Below, in pieces: positions 28,069-32,961 of a stretch of 64,000 bases of DNA (position 1 is its first letter; each line of letters opens with the position of its first letter). The notes under the pieces are model-generated. The model saw only the letters and a program-made list of their open reading frames with translations. It made no database searches and was not told where the DNA came from. The DNA lies in the NCBI GenBank assembly GCA_023380935.1, contig JAMCST010000011.1, positions 124,001 to 188,000 of the forward strand. The letters run 5' to 3'. The translations under genes and the position numbers were made by a program. The stretch is from Patescibacteria group bacterium. Its GTDB lineage: Bacteria > Patescibacteriota > Microgenomatia > UBA1406 > GWC2-37-13.

Positions 28069-29154
28069 TTAGAATTTAAAATAGGCAAACACTTCTTCCA
28101 TTGCCTTTTTTCCGCGGACAATATTTTGCCTCATCGTAGTAGAAGGATCAATGGTCGCGCGTTTAGTTCTCAAATGCATTTTGGAAATCAGGTAACGCAG
28201 TTTGAACAATTGAAATTTATCTTCGTTGTTTTCCAGCTGACCAATCTGCCGATAGCCTTCTTTAAACCAAGTCAGGCGCGGTTCGCCGAAAAACAGATTA
28301 TAAGCCGCCACTTCCATTAACGGATCGCCGGAAAAACACTCGTCCCAGTCCATCATGCCGGTAATGTGTTCGCCCTCACATAGTTCGTTCCAGTCGGCAA
28401 TGTCGTTATGAATCAGGGCTCCCGGCCGACAGCCCATCAACGCGTCGCTTCCGGCAAACAATCCCTCGATGGATCGACACTGCTTTTGAGCCAGTACGCC
28501 GGCATCGACCAGATAGCGAAGATCCAGCCCTAAGGCCGCCAGCAGATGTTGTTTAAACGCCCAATACTGGCCACGTAACCGCCCGGTCTTTTTGGCTAGT
28601 TGATTGTCAAAAAAACCAAACCCATCTGGCTTGACGGTATGGATTAACGCCGCATACTTTCCGGTTTCTCTGACCAGTTTTTTTTCCAGTTCCGTCGGTA
28701 AGGGGCTGCAGTCGGCCATCGGTTTGCCGGGAACCGCGGTCATGATCATGAACTCAAACGGCACGACTGATTGCGAATCGTCGATATGCACGGTTTCGTA
28801 GGTCGGCACTCCTAATTTTCTGGCGGCATCGGTAGCCGCTTTCTCCGCCCAGAAATAACCGTTTTTTACCTGTTTGGGATGAATACGTAAAATGACTTTC
28901 CGACCGCTTTGCAAGACAACCGGAATGACCGAGTTGACCGAACCCCGCCTGATGATCGGATTGATTGCGGCAATTTTTCGATCGTTTTTCCCAAATCCGG
29001 CTGATTTCATGCCATGATCAACCATCATGCACAACACTGCATCCTCCAGTTGCTCATGTCTTTCAATAAATACTCTTTTAGTTTCTGCCGCAGTCAAAGG
29101 ACGATTGGTCTGCCAGTAAAACATGTTTTTCCGGCTGGAGAGATCGATTGGCAT
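28069..29154 (-). CDS. APH-family phosphotransferase (small-molecule kinase fold)
   Basis: ALIHNDIADWNELCEGEHITGMMDWDECFSGDP. Confidence 0.82.
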   Translation of the reverse strand: MPIDLSSRKNMFYWQTNRPLTAAETKRVFIERHEQLEDAVLCMMVDHGMKSAGFGKNDRKIAAINPIIRRGSVNSVIPVVLQSGRKVILRIHPKQVKNGYFWAEKAATDAARKLGVPTYETVHIDDSQSVVPFEFMIMTAVPGKPMADCSPLPTELEKKLVRETGKYAALIHTVKPDGFGFFDNQLAKKTGRLRGQYWAFKQHLLAALGLDLRYLVDAGVLAQKQCRSIEGLFAGSDALMGCRPGALIHNDIADWNELCEGEHITGMMDWDECFSGDPLMEVAAYNLFFGEPRLTWFKEGYRQIGQLENNEDKFQLFKLRYLISKMHLRTKRATIDPSTTMRQNIVRGKKAMEEVFAYFKF

Positions 29155-29204: not shown

Positions 29205-29867
29205 TTATGGCCAATTCTCCCTAAATCCGTTGAAAAACACCCTCTTTTGATCGCCGACCAGTTTGTAGCGGTCGCCTTTGACCAGAATGGCCTGGCGGTC
29301 ATTGAGAGCGACGACCGGATATTTGGTCGTCGGCGCCGCCCGCTCAATTATTGGTCTATACGCCTCTGTGTAATGGGCGGTGATCAAAAACGGCACCAGT
29401 CCCAAACCGGTCAAGTCGGTCAACCCGACTTTGTTCCTGTCCTGGTGTTTCCAGTTTGACTGCTCAATGGTCGGACAAACAATGTAACTGCCGGCGCTGA
29501 TCCCGATGTATAATTTTCCCGCTCTCAACAGCGGCTGAACCAATCGATCAAAACCGCTTTTCCTGACCCAATCAAGCAGGTAAAAACTGTTGCCGCCGTT
29601 GACAAAGATGATGTCTTTGGCATCTAAAATCCGGCTCAGTTCTTGGGCTGTTTTTCCCCTCAGATCCAGGTCTTCAACCTGGCTGATGCCATAATCCCTT
29701 AACTGATCCCGGTAGACCTGTAACCAGGGAGGATTAGCTTCTTCACCGTAAGCCGCCGTAGTAATAAAACTCACCTTGATGTCTTTGGCCGGTTTGACCA
29801 GCAGCGAGACAAATACATCTTTCAACGTATCAGGTAGTCCCTGGGAAGTTAACAACAAAGTTTCCAT
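29205..29867 (-). CDS. peptidase E-like (S51) class I glutamine amidotransferase-fold protein
   Basis: DIIFVNGGNSFYLLDWVR, YIGISAGSYIVCPTIE. Confidence 0.85.
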   Translation of the reverse strand: METLLLTSQGLPDTLKDVFVSLLVKPAKDIKVSFITTAAYGEEANPPWLQVYRDQLRDYGISQVEDLDLRGKTAQELSRILDAKDIIFVNGGNSFYLLDWVRKSGFDRLVQPLLRAGKLYIGISAGSYIVCPTIEQSNWKHQDRNKVGLTDLTGLGLVPFLITAHYTEAYRPIIERAAPTTKYPVVALNDRQAILVKGDRYKLVGDQKRVFFNGFRENWP

Positions 29868-29882
29868 TCTTAGACTAGTATA

Positions 29883-30677
29883 TCAGGACAAATTACTTAA
29901 TCGTACCACTGCTCCCAAAGCAGTCAGTATTGCCCGGTCAACACTGGCTTCGGCTTCGCTGGTGGCGATTTTGGTATTGGGAGTATCAAAACTAAATTTA
30001 CCAAACATAATTTCCTTTAACGGCTCCGGGTTCGAGTTAACCGCCAACACCGCTCCAGTCATTACTCCTCTTAAGGTCCCGATAATAAACAAAGGCGCAC
30101 ACTCCATTTCGGAGCTGATCAACGGATAATTCCAGTCTTTCATTCTTGGGTTTAAATATACCTTGCCCCAGCTTTTGATATTCTGCGCCTGCCCGTAAAA
30201 AGCGTCATGAGTGCGATTAATTCCGAGATAATAACGATAACCCGCCTGTTGAGCGCTGTTTTTTAACGCCTGAATGACCTGATAGTCAGCCACTGCCGGA
30301 AACTCCGGCGCGATATATTCCTTGGTAGTTCCCTCTTCACGGATGGCGGCGGTCGGGATAATCACCGCCCCGGCTTTGATTTGTTTTTTTAAGGCGCCGC
30401 CGCAGGTGCCGACCCGGATAAGAAGTTTGGCACCACAGTTGATCAACTCTTCAACAGCGATCGCGGTTGAAGGGCTACCGATACCGGTCGAGGTTACGGT
30501 AATTTTTACCTTTTTGTAAGTGCCGGTATAAGTAACAAACTCCCGGTTTTGAGCGACAAACACCGGATTACTCAGGTACTTTTCAGCAATATACTTGGCC
30601 CGGCCGGGATCACCCGGCAATAAACAAGCTTGGGCAACGGTTTTTTTGGTACACAGAATGTGTGACTGTCTCTGCAT
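29883..30677 (-). CDS. nucleoside phosphorylase (PNP/UDP family)
   Basis: LLPGDPGRAKYIAEKYL, TSTGIGSPSTAIAVEELINCGAKLLIRVGTCGG, SSEMECAPLFIIGTLRG. Confidence 0.93.
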   Translation of the reverse strand: MQRQSHILCTKKTVAQACLLPGDPGRAKYIAEKYLSNPVFVAQNREFVTYTGTYKKVKITVTSTGIGSPSTAIAVEELINCGAKLLIRVGTCGGALKKQIKAGAVIIPTAAIREEGTTKEYIAPEFPAVADYQVIQALKNSAQQAGYRYYLGINRTHDAFYGQAQNIKSWGKVYLNPRMKDWNYPLISSEMECAPLFIIGTLRGVMTGAVLAVNSNPEPLKEIMFGKFSFDTPNTKIATSEAEASVDRAILTALGAVVRLSNLS

Positions 30678-30682
30678 AGTTT

Positions 30683-31582
30683 TTACCTCCGATTCTCTAA
30701 AATTTGTCTGATAATATAGTTGGCTCCGGCGGCCAGCGGCAAAGACGACGCGGCAACCAAACCATTGGTTGTTCTGGCGGCGTCTTTGAGCTCATCCGAG
30801 GCATTATTTTTTCCGCAGGTGGTAATCTGACCACCTAACGCCGTCATTGAGTCGGCCGAACTATCGCCGATCATGTAATAAGATAAACCGGCGGGCAGTT
30901 GATCTATTACCTGCCGGACCGCATTGGGTTTATTAACTGTTGGGTCCTTGACCAAACAACTACCCAGTTGAGGGTATCTTTTGCAAACCAGTTGGCTGTT
31001 TGAACCAAGTTGACGATTTAACACCGCCTTGGTCTGCCGCGTTAACTGGTCATCGACCACCAACCTGCCCCGTTGATCGGCTCGCCTGGTATAGACCCCG
31101 TAACTGCATTCTCGGGTGGTATTGATTAAATAAACCAGCTCGCCCGGTATACCGGTTATCTGATTTGTTCGCACCATGGCGGTGGCATCACCGGCGACGA
31201 CTCGGGAAGACGGACTGTTTGTTTTTAACGCTTCCGTTGCCTTGGAACGGAAAGCGCTAAAAAAAGGTCTTGCTTTGATAAAGTACTGTTTCAGGCCGAC
31301 ATCGGGCAGGTAAAAAACCGCGCCGTTCTCGCCGATGACCATTGGACTACACGCAAGCTCTCTGGCAAACGCCGCCAAACCGTCACTACCCGTGTCTGAA
31401 ACCAGTACCACCCAGTAACCGGCGGTTTTCGCCTCGCTGATAACCGCCAGGTCGCGCTTGGGCGCGGCTGCAAAGTTGGCGCCTTCGTCGAACCACACGC
31501 CATCCAGATCGGAAAAAATAATTCCTCGTTTTGGCACACCTAATAATTCCGGAATATTAATGCTCTCTTCTTGATCAATCAT
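30683..31582 (-). CDS. HAD-superfamily phosphatase (Cof/SPP type)
   Basis: GIIFSDLDGVWFDEG, VIGENGAVFYL, YMIGDSSADSMTALGGQITTCGKNNASDELK. Confidence 0.85.
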   Translation of the reverse strand: MIDQEESINIPELLGVPKRGIIFSDLDGVWFDEGANFAAAPKRDLAVISEAKTAGYWVVLVSDTGSDGLAAFARELACSPMVIGENGAVFYLPDVGLKQYFIKARPFFSAFRSKATEALKTNSPSSRVVAGDATAMVRTNQITGIPGELVYLINTTRECSYGVYTRRADQRGRLVVDDQLTRQTKAVLNRQLGSNSQLVCKRYPQLGSCLVKDPTVNKPNAVRQVIDQLPAGLSYYMIGDSSADSMTALGGQITTCGKNNASDELKDAARTTNGLVAASSLPLAAGANYIIRQILENRR

Positions 31583-32439
31583 GGTTGTCCTTTCTCCGGC
31601 ACCATCTGCCTTAACTGTTGTACCATTTCCGTAAAGATCGGTTGATCGATTACAAAATCATTTATATATCTGTTTCTCACCGCCACTGATTTTTCGGACG
31701 TACCGATCAAAGTCGAAACACTGTTAACCGCCGGAATTCCGGCGGTTCCCTGATAAACCGTCGGGGCAATAATTGAACCATATCCGGCCAAACCGCTTGG
31801 ACCGGCGGCTCGGCTGCGGTTTTGCAGCGGCGAAAGCATCAGTAAACTGCCTGAGAAATTGTTATCTGGTTTTACCGGAAACGCTGCCCGGATCGCGCTG
31901 GCCGTCGCACCGGTAGCAATCACGTCATCCAACACCAAAAAGGTGTTAAATTTTCCGTCGGCGATCAGCTTCCGGATTTTTGTCACGTCAGCCACCGTCA
32001 CCCCCTTAACCGTTTTTGTCCGGGCGTCGACTTCCCGCCTGACCGGCAGATCAACCGCCATCAAACCAGATAACAATTTCTCAGGCAGCTGCTCTTTAAC
32101 TGCTTGGGCGCCGTCGCCGGGAAAAATCGCCAGCGTTTTTTTGCGATCCAGCACGGTCATTAAACGCACCAGTTTTTCCACCAACTTTTGACCCTGTCTT
32201 CTTACGTCGTAAGAGACGATCTCACCCGAACAAGCGACAAACAGAAACTCCAGGGCTTCGGCAATCGATTGCCTGGCTTTCCAGGAAAGATCATCGACGG
32301 CGATCCGGGTGGACGGCGTTTCGATTAGGACTGACTCATCTTTGTACAGCTTGGGGAAATCGCGTTCAAGTTTGCCGTCCATTTCCTGTTTCAACGCAGC
32401 TAATCGGCAAGCTCTTTGCGTTTCTTGATAATTATTCAT
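31579..32439 (-). CDS. phosphoribosyltransferase-like protein
   Basis: PRPP loop FLVLDDVIATGATASAIRAAF; start assigned to ATG at 32439 because the upstream extension would run through the terminator hairpin; ATGA overlap with HAD gene. Confidence 0.75.
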   Translation of the reverse strand: MNNYQETQRACRLAALKQEMDGKLERDFPKLYKDESVLIETPSTRIAVDDLSWKARQSIAEALEFLFVACSGEIVSYDVRRQGQKLVEKLVRLMTVLDRKKTLAIFPGDGAQAVKEQLPEKLLSGLMAVDLPVRREVDARTKTVKGVTVADVTKIRKLIADGKFNTFLVLDDVIATGATASAIRAAFPVKPDNNFSGSLLMLSPLQNRSRAAGPSGLAGYGSIIAPTVYQGTAGIPAVNSVSTLIGTSEKSVAVRNRYINDFVIDQPIFTEMVQQLRQMVPEKGQP

Positions 32440-32445
32440 ATGTAT

Positions 32446-32468
32446 AAAAAAACCCGCCTGTCGGCGGG
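32446..32468 (-). terminator. intrinsic terminator/attenuator 6 nt upstream of PRTase-like start
   Basis: Minus strand CCCGCC-GACA-GGCGGG-TTTTTTT then ATACAT-ATG. Confidence 0.82.
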
Positions 32469-32505
32469 GTCGGTAATCGCTAACTGCACCAAAATTACCC
32501 CGCCG
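32462..32505 (-). promoter_or_regulatory. putative antiterminator: CGGCGGGGT (32505-32497) pairs with ACCCCGCCG (32470-32462)
   Basis: Perfect 9-bp complementarity; shares 32462-32468 with terminator stem, so the two are mutually exclusive. Confidence 0.7.
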
Positions 32506-32557
32506 CGGCGAGGTAGTGATGCGCAAACACCTGATCGTTCATGACTAGGTTTTTCAT
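32495..32557 (-). CDS. putative attenuator leader peptide MKNLVMNDQVFAHHYLAAAG
   Basis: 20-codon ORF between predicted promoter and terminator; last codons contain the 5' antiterminator arm; absent from supplied ORF list (below size cut-off). Confidence 0.65.
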   Translation of the reverse strand: MKNLVMNDQVFAHHYLAAAG

Positions 32558-32569
32558 GGTTAATGTATT

Positions 32570-32593
32570 AATGTGTTAATATATTAACACATT
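32570..32593. promoter_or_regulatory. perfect 24-bp palindromic operator AATGTGTTAATATATTAACACATT
   Basis: Exact self-reverse-complement; overlaps -10 of minus operon promoter and first bases of -35 of regulator promoter. Confidence 0.85.
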
Positions 32594-32609
32594 GATATTT
32601 GTTTGTCAA
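32581..32609 (-). promoter_or_regulatory. promoter of PRTase operon: TTGACA-17-TAATAT
   Basis: Minus strand -35 at 32609-32604, -10 at 32586-32581, spacer 17. Confidence 0.65.
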
Positions 32610-32620
32610 CCCGATATAAT
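32592..32620 (+). promoter_or_regulatory. promoter of TrpR-like gene: TTGATA-17-TATAAT
   Basis: -35 32592-32597, -10 32615-32620, 8 nt before ATG. Confidence 0.78.
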
Positions 32621-32628
32621 TTACCCAT

Positions 32629-32961
32629 ATGGCCAACGCCAGAAAATTGCAAACCACCAAGTTTCGGAAAACCGAAACCTATGTTCCGCGTAACGAGCGG
32701 GAAAAACTACTGACAAAGGTAATTAAAGGATTGAAAACCGATCAGGAAGTGGCTTCCCTATTGCGCGACCTGATGACGCCATCGGAGATCGCCGAGTTTG
32801 CCAACCGGATAACCATTGCCCAAAAACTGCTGGAAGGCGAAGCGTACCAAAAGATCGCCCGGGAGATTGGCACCTCGACCACGACCGTTACCCGGGTCGC
32901 CCACTGGCTCTTTTCCGGCTGCGGCGGGTATCATAAGGCCTTAGGCAGAAAAAAAACTTAG
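32629..32961 (+). CDS. TrpR-superfamily (YerC/YecD-like) transcriptional regulator
   Basis: LLRDLMTPSEIAEFANRITIAQKLLEGEAYQKIAREIGTSTTTVTRVAHWL. Confidence 0.92.
   Translation: MANARKLQTTKFRKTETYVPRNEREKLLTKVIKGLKTDQEVASLLRDLMTPSEIAEFANRITIAQKLLEGEAYQKIAREIGTSTTTVTRVAHWLFSGCGGYHKALGRKKT

Follow-up and report, generated by a model that had tools for sequence, protein, structure and literature searches.

Gene regulation in Patescibacteria is almost uncharted, and no relevant report of attenuators or leader peptides in this group was found in the literature searched. From the window, that is, the whole stretch of 64,000 nucleotides analysed here, an unannotated leader peptide followed by alternative hairpins had been proposed to control a nucleobase-type operon on the minus strand. 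The locus raises the questions of whether such a switch is present, which signal it reads and which genes it serves. According to the evidence presented below, the locus is very probably a histidine-sensing double switch of the trp-operon kind, in which a HisR-like repressor is combined with a ribosome-mediated attenuator.

Organisation of the leader region

The leader ORF (32557-32495), the terminator (32468-32446) and the ATG of the first gene (32439) lie exactly at the minus-strand positions given in the original prediction, and the predicted promoter upstream of the leader lies at 32609-32581. The leader region contains the following elements:

32557-32495, minus strand: leader peptide ORF MKNLVMNDQVFAHHYLAAAG (20 codons), with orthologous leaders in relatives
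32516-32521, minus strand: regulatory codons CAT CAC (His-His), a pair that is constant across the aligned leaders, with differing residues after it
32515-32506, minus strand: arm 1 TACCTCGCCG, directly 3' of the His codons and forming 8 pairs with arm 2
32505-32496, minus strand: arm 2 CGGCGGGGTA, overlapping the leader stop codon, with either arm 1 or arm 3 as partner
32470-32462, minus strand: arm 3 ACCCCGCCG, pairing with arm 2 in the antiterminator and serving as terminator 5' arm
32453-32458, minus strand: arm 4 GGCGGG, terminator 3' arm
32452-32446, minus strand: T7 tract of the intrinsic terminator

The leader ORF begins about 17 nt past the predicted transcription start site, and no Shine-Dalgarno sequence is seen ahead of it in the window. 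The terminator stem-loop CCCGCC-GACA-GGCGGG occupies 32468-32453 on the minus strand, with the T7 tract directly 3' of it. The 9-bp complementarity between CGGCGGGGT (32505-32497) and ACCCCGCCG (32470-32462) is perfect, as had been claimed, and the antiterminator and the intrinsic terminator are mutually exclusive. The earlier two-hairpin scheme holds in this respect but was incomplete, an additional 1:2 hairpin being present; the three-way set 1:2, 2:3 and 3:4, known from the trp operon, is complete in the leader RNA. This RNA (131 nt) folds with −43.2 kcal/mol, compared with −31.7 kcal/mol for shuffled sequences (z = −3.1). Coordinate geometry, together with folding in which the ribosome footprint was masked, places the codons such that a ribosome stalled with its A site at the second His codon would cover arm 1 and leave arm 2 free, whereas one at the stop codon would cover arm 2.

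Promoters, operator and divergent regulator

The original prediction had overlooked arm 1 and also two elements upstream of the leader, namely a palindrome over the -10 box and a divergent gene of the TrpR/YerC family:

32609-32581, minus strand: predicted operon promoter TTGACA-17-TAATAT (10/12) with extended -10 TG
32592-32620, plus strand: predicted promoter of the regulator gene, TTGATA-17-TATAAT (11/12), by consensus match only
32591-32572, minus strand: putative operator, a perfect 20-bp palindrome TGTGTTAATATATTAACACA over the operon -10 box
32629-32961, plus strand: divergent TrpR/YerC-family (HisR-like) regulator, 110 aa (PF01371, 2.7e-17)

The 20-bp palindrome is nested in a palindrome of 32 bp (32566-32597; repeats 8 bp apart) that extends to the -35 of the divergent promoter. 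Because the operon -10 box lies inside the palindromic operator, the predicted repressor site and the attenuator would share one promoter. The regulator scores 47.3 bits with TIGR02531 (yecD_yerC), above the cut-off of 42.2, and 35.4 bits with the TrpR equivalog TIGR01321, below the cut-off of 67.25. Among named organisms, Candidatus Roizmanbacteria and further Microgenomates (Patescibacteria) have the proteins closest to it, by which the genome of the window is placed.

HisR is a TrpR-family regulator of histidine genes in Firmicutes and other phyla that uses 20-bp palindromes with lineage-specific motifs, and the phyla covered by that study do not include Patescibacteria (PMC9413887). The protein encoded here resembles HisR in belonging to the PF01371/YerC family, in the 20-bp palindromes and in adjacency to his genes and hutH. 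The operator is TATGTTAACATATTAACATG-like instead of the common HisR consensus cacTTTAnnnnnnTAAAgtg, and owing to this difference we call the protein HisR-like, not HisR. Its family and position suggest that it acts as a repressor at the operator, probably with histidine as co-repressor, as judged from the target genes and the leader codons. The best-scoring 20-mer of the TATGTTAACATATTAACATG-like motif was found at the corresponding place in all 14 regulator-divergent regions, the score margin being inflated since the matrix was trained on these same regions. It overlaps the -10 region in most of them and, as in the window, stands directly past a TTGAC -35. Distant TrpR-family homologues at three loci (L023, L024, L028) carry canonical HisR operators upstream, for instance CACTTTAGTATACTAAAGTG; therefore two HisR-type operator classes coexist in the lineage.

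Conservation of the locus in relatives

Homologues of the first operon gene, which is PRTase-like, were almost entirely absent as a route to orthologous leaders, and these were traced instead through the neighbouring regulator gene. Regulator homologues are divergent from hisG-hisD-hisC operons (L037, L043, L050), from hutH (L044, L045), from an amino-acid ABC transporter (L049) and from nucleoside hydrolase-HAD-PRTase genes (L033), the hisG and hutH identities having been confirmed with curated models. Leaders ending in HH..AG-stop and followed by terminators were found in 11 regulator-divergent regions of relatives, examples being MIENKVSNFEVNHHYPASAG, MKSLTLQTSKIVHHNLAPAG, MLINKTDWISTINHHFLAKAG and MTLNITFNIFHHSPAFAG. 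In the alignments of these with the window (A1/A2, 12 regions) the leaders share this ending and the GC terminator after it, the ORF of L044 continuing a few codons beyond, while the N-terminal halves are not conserved. Under strict criteria (terminator, His-His leader and arm complementarity) the full attenuator was present in 9 of 14 regions, comprising the window and 13 relatives, versus none of 5,600 dinucleotide-shuffled regions (400 × 14).

A covariance model built from the 12 leaders (R1) matched 58 of the 72 genomes and 27 of the 34 genera of the family at E ≤ 0.01, part of the weak matches being chance or reverse-strand echoes. At E ≤ 1e-5 the class was sampled with 374 genomes, of which 33 gave matches, eight of these lying outside the order. 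The R1 source sequences were placed by their His pair, so that the position of His within the hits is partly circular; the shuffle test above and the locus test on DAHP-synthase and hisS genes described below, which does not use the model, are free of this circularity.

Variants of the arrangement were also seen. In three genera outside that of the window (G048, G019, G234) the His leader is seemingly the C-terminus of the regulator gene itself, the proteins (L053:10688-11056, L056:6577-6653, L241) ending in ...NSHHAPA, ...NSLHHHRR and ...MNHHHSPLVAE, respectively, before the stop codon; downstream come the arms of the attenuator and a gene that is PRTase-like or racemase-like. The genome of the window contains one more His leader, MDRAINYDREQHHHPRCGG, located at the end of a contig (G000:C14:144-217, L174), the downstream genes perhaps forming a racemase-hisS operon as in G001. 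It also contains a candidate aromatic leader, MTVLTVNKFYFYFTRLKGGEIC (G000:C17:7835-7914, L228), 263 nt before an unidentified gene.

Covariation and folding of the arms

In a set of 51 His leaders, pairing of the 2:3 helix amounts to 98.6% and 23 cells show a double change, a covariation reached by none of 500 shuffles and not approached by slid controls. In all three helices an arm pairs better with its own partner than with one taken from another genome (z = 8.1 for 1:2, 6.6 for 2:3 and 5.9 for 3:4). The hisS-type leaders show a coordinated change from GCGGGG/CCCCGC to GGAGGG/CCCTCC, and in G048 (L053) wholly different arms, GTTGGTTGGTGA and TCACCAGCCAAC, are found with the layout unchanged. 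Both checks that bear on the ribosome-mediated attenuation originally proposed, conservation of the HH..AG leader ORF on the one hand and of the arms with their covariation on the other, came out in its favour, as did the shuffle test.

These data bear on the possibility that control lies solely with the HisR-like protein bound to the palindrome, the hairpin being a constitutive promoter-proximal terminator and the ORF having arisen by chance. Such control would account for the operator being present in 14 of 14 regions, including L041, which lacks the attenuator, and L049, whose attenuator is degenerate with a single His in the leader. However, it leaves the conservation of the leader, of its His codons and of three covarying arms unexplained, and His leaders occur also at hisS, apart from the divergent regulator locus. 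We therefore consider repression as the sole control very improbable and retain the combination of repressor and attenuator.

With the ribosome masked up to the stop codon, the terminator folded in 42 of 42 cases. In the window, stalling at either His codon allowed the antiterminator to fold, at −22.2 kcal/mol for the second. At minimum free energy no more than 26-31 of 49 leaders formed the antiterminator in the stalled state, and 35 of 49 formed it (2:3) also without a ribosome when folded from the His codons. The ribosome-free outcome varies with the starting point of folding; the window leader folded from the transcript start formed 1:2 and 3:4. The order of co-transcriptional folding must decide between the alternative structures.

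The signal read by the leader codons

Stalling had been proposed to occur near His-His-Tyr. The two His codons are the only constant ones across leaders, HHY, HHN, HHF, HHP, HHS, HHL and HHR all being found in relatives; because nothing but His-His is conserved, the signal is taken to be histidine. The His-His part of the proposal thus stands and Tyr, replaced by N, F, P, S, T, L or R elsewhere, was rejected as a signal. A C-terminal Ala-Gly or Gly-Gly is conserved as well. It was rejected as a stalling motif, as arm 2 (GCGGGG or GGAGGG before the stop) encodes exactly these residues.

The short leader ORF, predicted to be translated, has a tandem of codons for the amino acid with which the downstream genes are associated. 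HH leaders lie upstream of hisG, hutH and hisS genes scoring above curated cut-offs, and also upstream of histidine-racemase-like genes, which score below the cut-off. Weaker R1 matches show other codons at other genes, namely FYFYFY upstream of DAHP synthase and ADTH synthase, NWQNWN upstream of a TrpB-like enzyme, LVIIVILI upstream of ilvE (Ile/Val/Leu), ITTT upstream of thrS and Leu upstream of 2-isopropylmalate synthase. With a generic attenuator detector of relaxed criteria, a stricter one having overlooked known cases, and without R1, a leader with four consecutive aromatic residues and a terminator was found at 7 of 10 DAHP-synthase loci and a His-His leader at 6 of the 30 hisS loci sampled, only about a fifth; swapped criteria, the reverse strand and shuffles gave no leaders in this locus test.

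One might suppose that the leader senses something other than the charging of His-tRNA, be it Tyr, the C-terminal Ala-Gly or slow termination, given the Tyr after His-His in the window and the conserved Ala-Gly/Gly-Gly. But the residues past His-His vary freely, AG/GG is explained by the pairing of arm 2, and at that very place the leaders of genes for aromatic amino acids, Thr, Trp and branched-chain amino acids show codons for the amino acid concerned. We regard another signal as extremely unlikely and continue with histidine.

Several recurrent targets were noted in addition. DapF-like proteins follow HH/HHH leaders at L141, L186-L189, L191, L056 and L241, the best NCBIfam hits of several being histidine racemases, below cut-off, and aspartate-racemase-family genes do so at L170, L178 and L221. 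At L168, L175, L177 and L222 aromatic leaders with stretches of F and Y stand before transaldolase-family and PfkB-kinase genes, perhaps a branch feeding the shikimate pathway. Genes for histidine ammonia-lyase stand behind His leaders at L140, L150, L159, L160 and L162 (G016, G020, G073, G062, G058).

Proposed mechanism and comparison with known systems

According to our model, a repressor of the TrpR/YerC family, probably with histidine as co-repressor, would bind the palindrome over the -10 box and shut off both the operon and its own divergent gene. Transcripts started despite the repressor would then reach the attenuator. When His-tRNA is charged, the ribosome would proceed to the stop codon inside arm 2 and the 3:4 terminator would form. 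When it is scarce, the ribosome would stall at CAT CAC and cover arm 1, leaving arm 2 free for the 2:3 antiterminator, and RNA polymerase would continue into the PRTase-HAD-phosphorylase operon. If the leader is not translated, 1:2 and 3:4 would form. The hutH target fits poorly with induction on histidine shortage; histidine degradation induced by shortage makes little sense, and the histidine ammonia-lyase may act otherwise here.

An additional action in trans, of the leader peptide or of the short attenuated RNA, would have a precedent in what is reported for peTrpL of Sinorhizobium (PMC7298713), and a stable short RNA would arise from attenuation. A trans-acting peptide is unlikely in view of the non-conserved N-terminal halves of the leaders, and we attach next to no probability to this addition to the attenuator acting in cis.

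In the E. coli trp operon, the TrpR repressor at a promoter-overlapping operator is combined with the trpL attenuator. In common with it the locus has a predicted TrpR-family repressor whose operator would overlap the promoter, a leader peptide in which the regulatory codons form a tandem pair, and the 1:2, 2:3 and 3:4 arms; it differs in having His instead of Trp codons, a divergent and adjacent regulator gene, another operator sequence, an unrelated host and a target that is no tryptophan operon. The best cmscan match is Rfam RF00513 Trp_leader (24.8 bits, E = 0.0042), below the gathering cut-off of 41, so that the leader would work like this family and is not a member of it. No Rfam family reached threshold in the leader, and neither His_leader nor T-box gave a match, be it at the gathering cut-offs or with E values as high as 10.

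Like the Proteobacterial his leader and the His attenuators of Firmicutes, the locus combines a tandem-His leader peptide, a terminator and an antiterminator before histidine genes. The Firmicutes attenuators have 3-5 His codons in a row and were sought in genomes without HisR (PMC9413887), whereas the leaders here contain two or three and a predicted repressor and attenuator are found on one promoter. Unlike in Firmicutes and Proteobacteria, the targets include hutH, hisS, racemase-like and nucleoside/PRTase operons.

The attenuation mechanism itself is textbook knowledge. As far as the literature searched shows, its presence in Patescibacteria, the pairing with a HisR-like repressor on one promoter, the use of several amino acids and the targets are new. 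The locus leads to a network of codon-read attenuators in an uncultured lineage of reduced genomes and would, with repressor and attenuator on a single promoter, provide a histidine counterpart to the trp paradigm. The leader codons further predict an amino-acid assignment for downstream genes of unknown function.

The downstream operon

The genes following the leader, all on the minus strand, are:

31579-32439, minus strand: first operon gene, divergent PRTase-like protein, 286 aa (ATG at 32439; PRPP-loop-like motif FLVLDDVIATGAT)
30683-31582, minus strand: HAD-family hydrolase
29883-30677, minus strand: nucleoside phosphorylase, PNP/UDP family (PF01048, 3.2e-35)
29205-29867, minus strand: S51-family peptidase, PepE-like (PF03575, 1.3e-32; PepE model below cut-off)
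28069-29154, minus strand: APH-family kinase-like protein (PF01636, 1.3e-18)

Strand and spacing suggest that the S51 peptidase belongs to the operon. The APH-family gene is probably the last member, less certainly so, with a 50-bp gap before it. The PRTase-like protein gave weak matches to PF00156 (E = 0.021) and XPRT, and its AlphaFold2 model from a three-sequence alignment (mean pLDDT 37) was discarded.

The description as a nucleobase-type operon undersells a target that has histidine-type control. Distant PRTase-like relatives sit in operons behind His leaders (L240, L087, L033; genomes G033, G087, G160). In G048 the order is regulator, PRTase-like gene, phosphorylase and hisS; the phosphorylase of the window is 64% identical to the PNP of this operon, and the PRTase-like gene, which resembles that of G160, is probably related to that of the window. 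Searches of five drafts of 83-96% completeness (the window's genome, G033, G087, G048 and G160) yielded no hisG, and those of the first four no hisA/F. With neither hisG nor hisA/F found in those four, a role of the operon in disposal of AICAR from histidine synthesis is disfavoured. Within genus g13 the genes behind this regulator-attenuator locus differ, being hisG in G013, G084 and G086 and nucleoside hydrolase-HAD-PRTase in G087. Given this alternation, and with no hisG found in the five module-bearing genomes, we tentatively suggest, as a possibility still open to considerable doubt, that the PRTase-HAD-nucleosidase module takes the place of the hisG operon and constitutes a histidine-linked pathway not recognised so far, be it for supply, salvage or nucleotide recycling. 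A nucleoside/PRTase module would thereby be tied to histidine metabolism in genomes showing no hisG.

Behind the switch in G026, a genome with no hisG, lies the gene of a large protein whose HAD match is weak and nucleotidase-like (L038:3447-6278). The further genes of that operon appear by eye to be of the LOG and PfkB types, another nucleotide-type module under His control.
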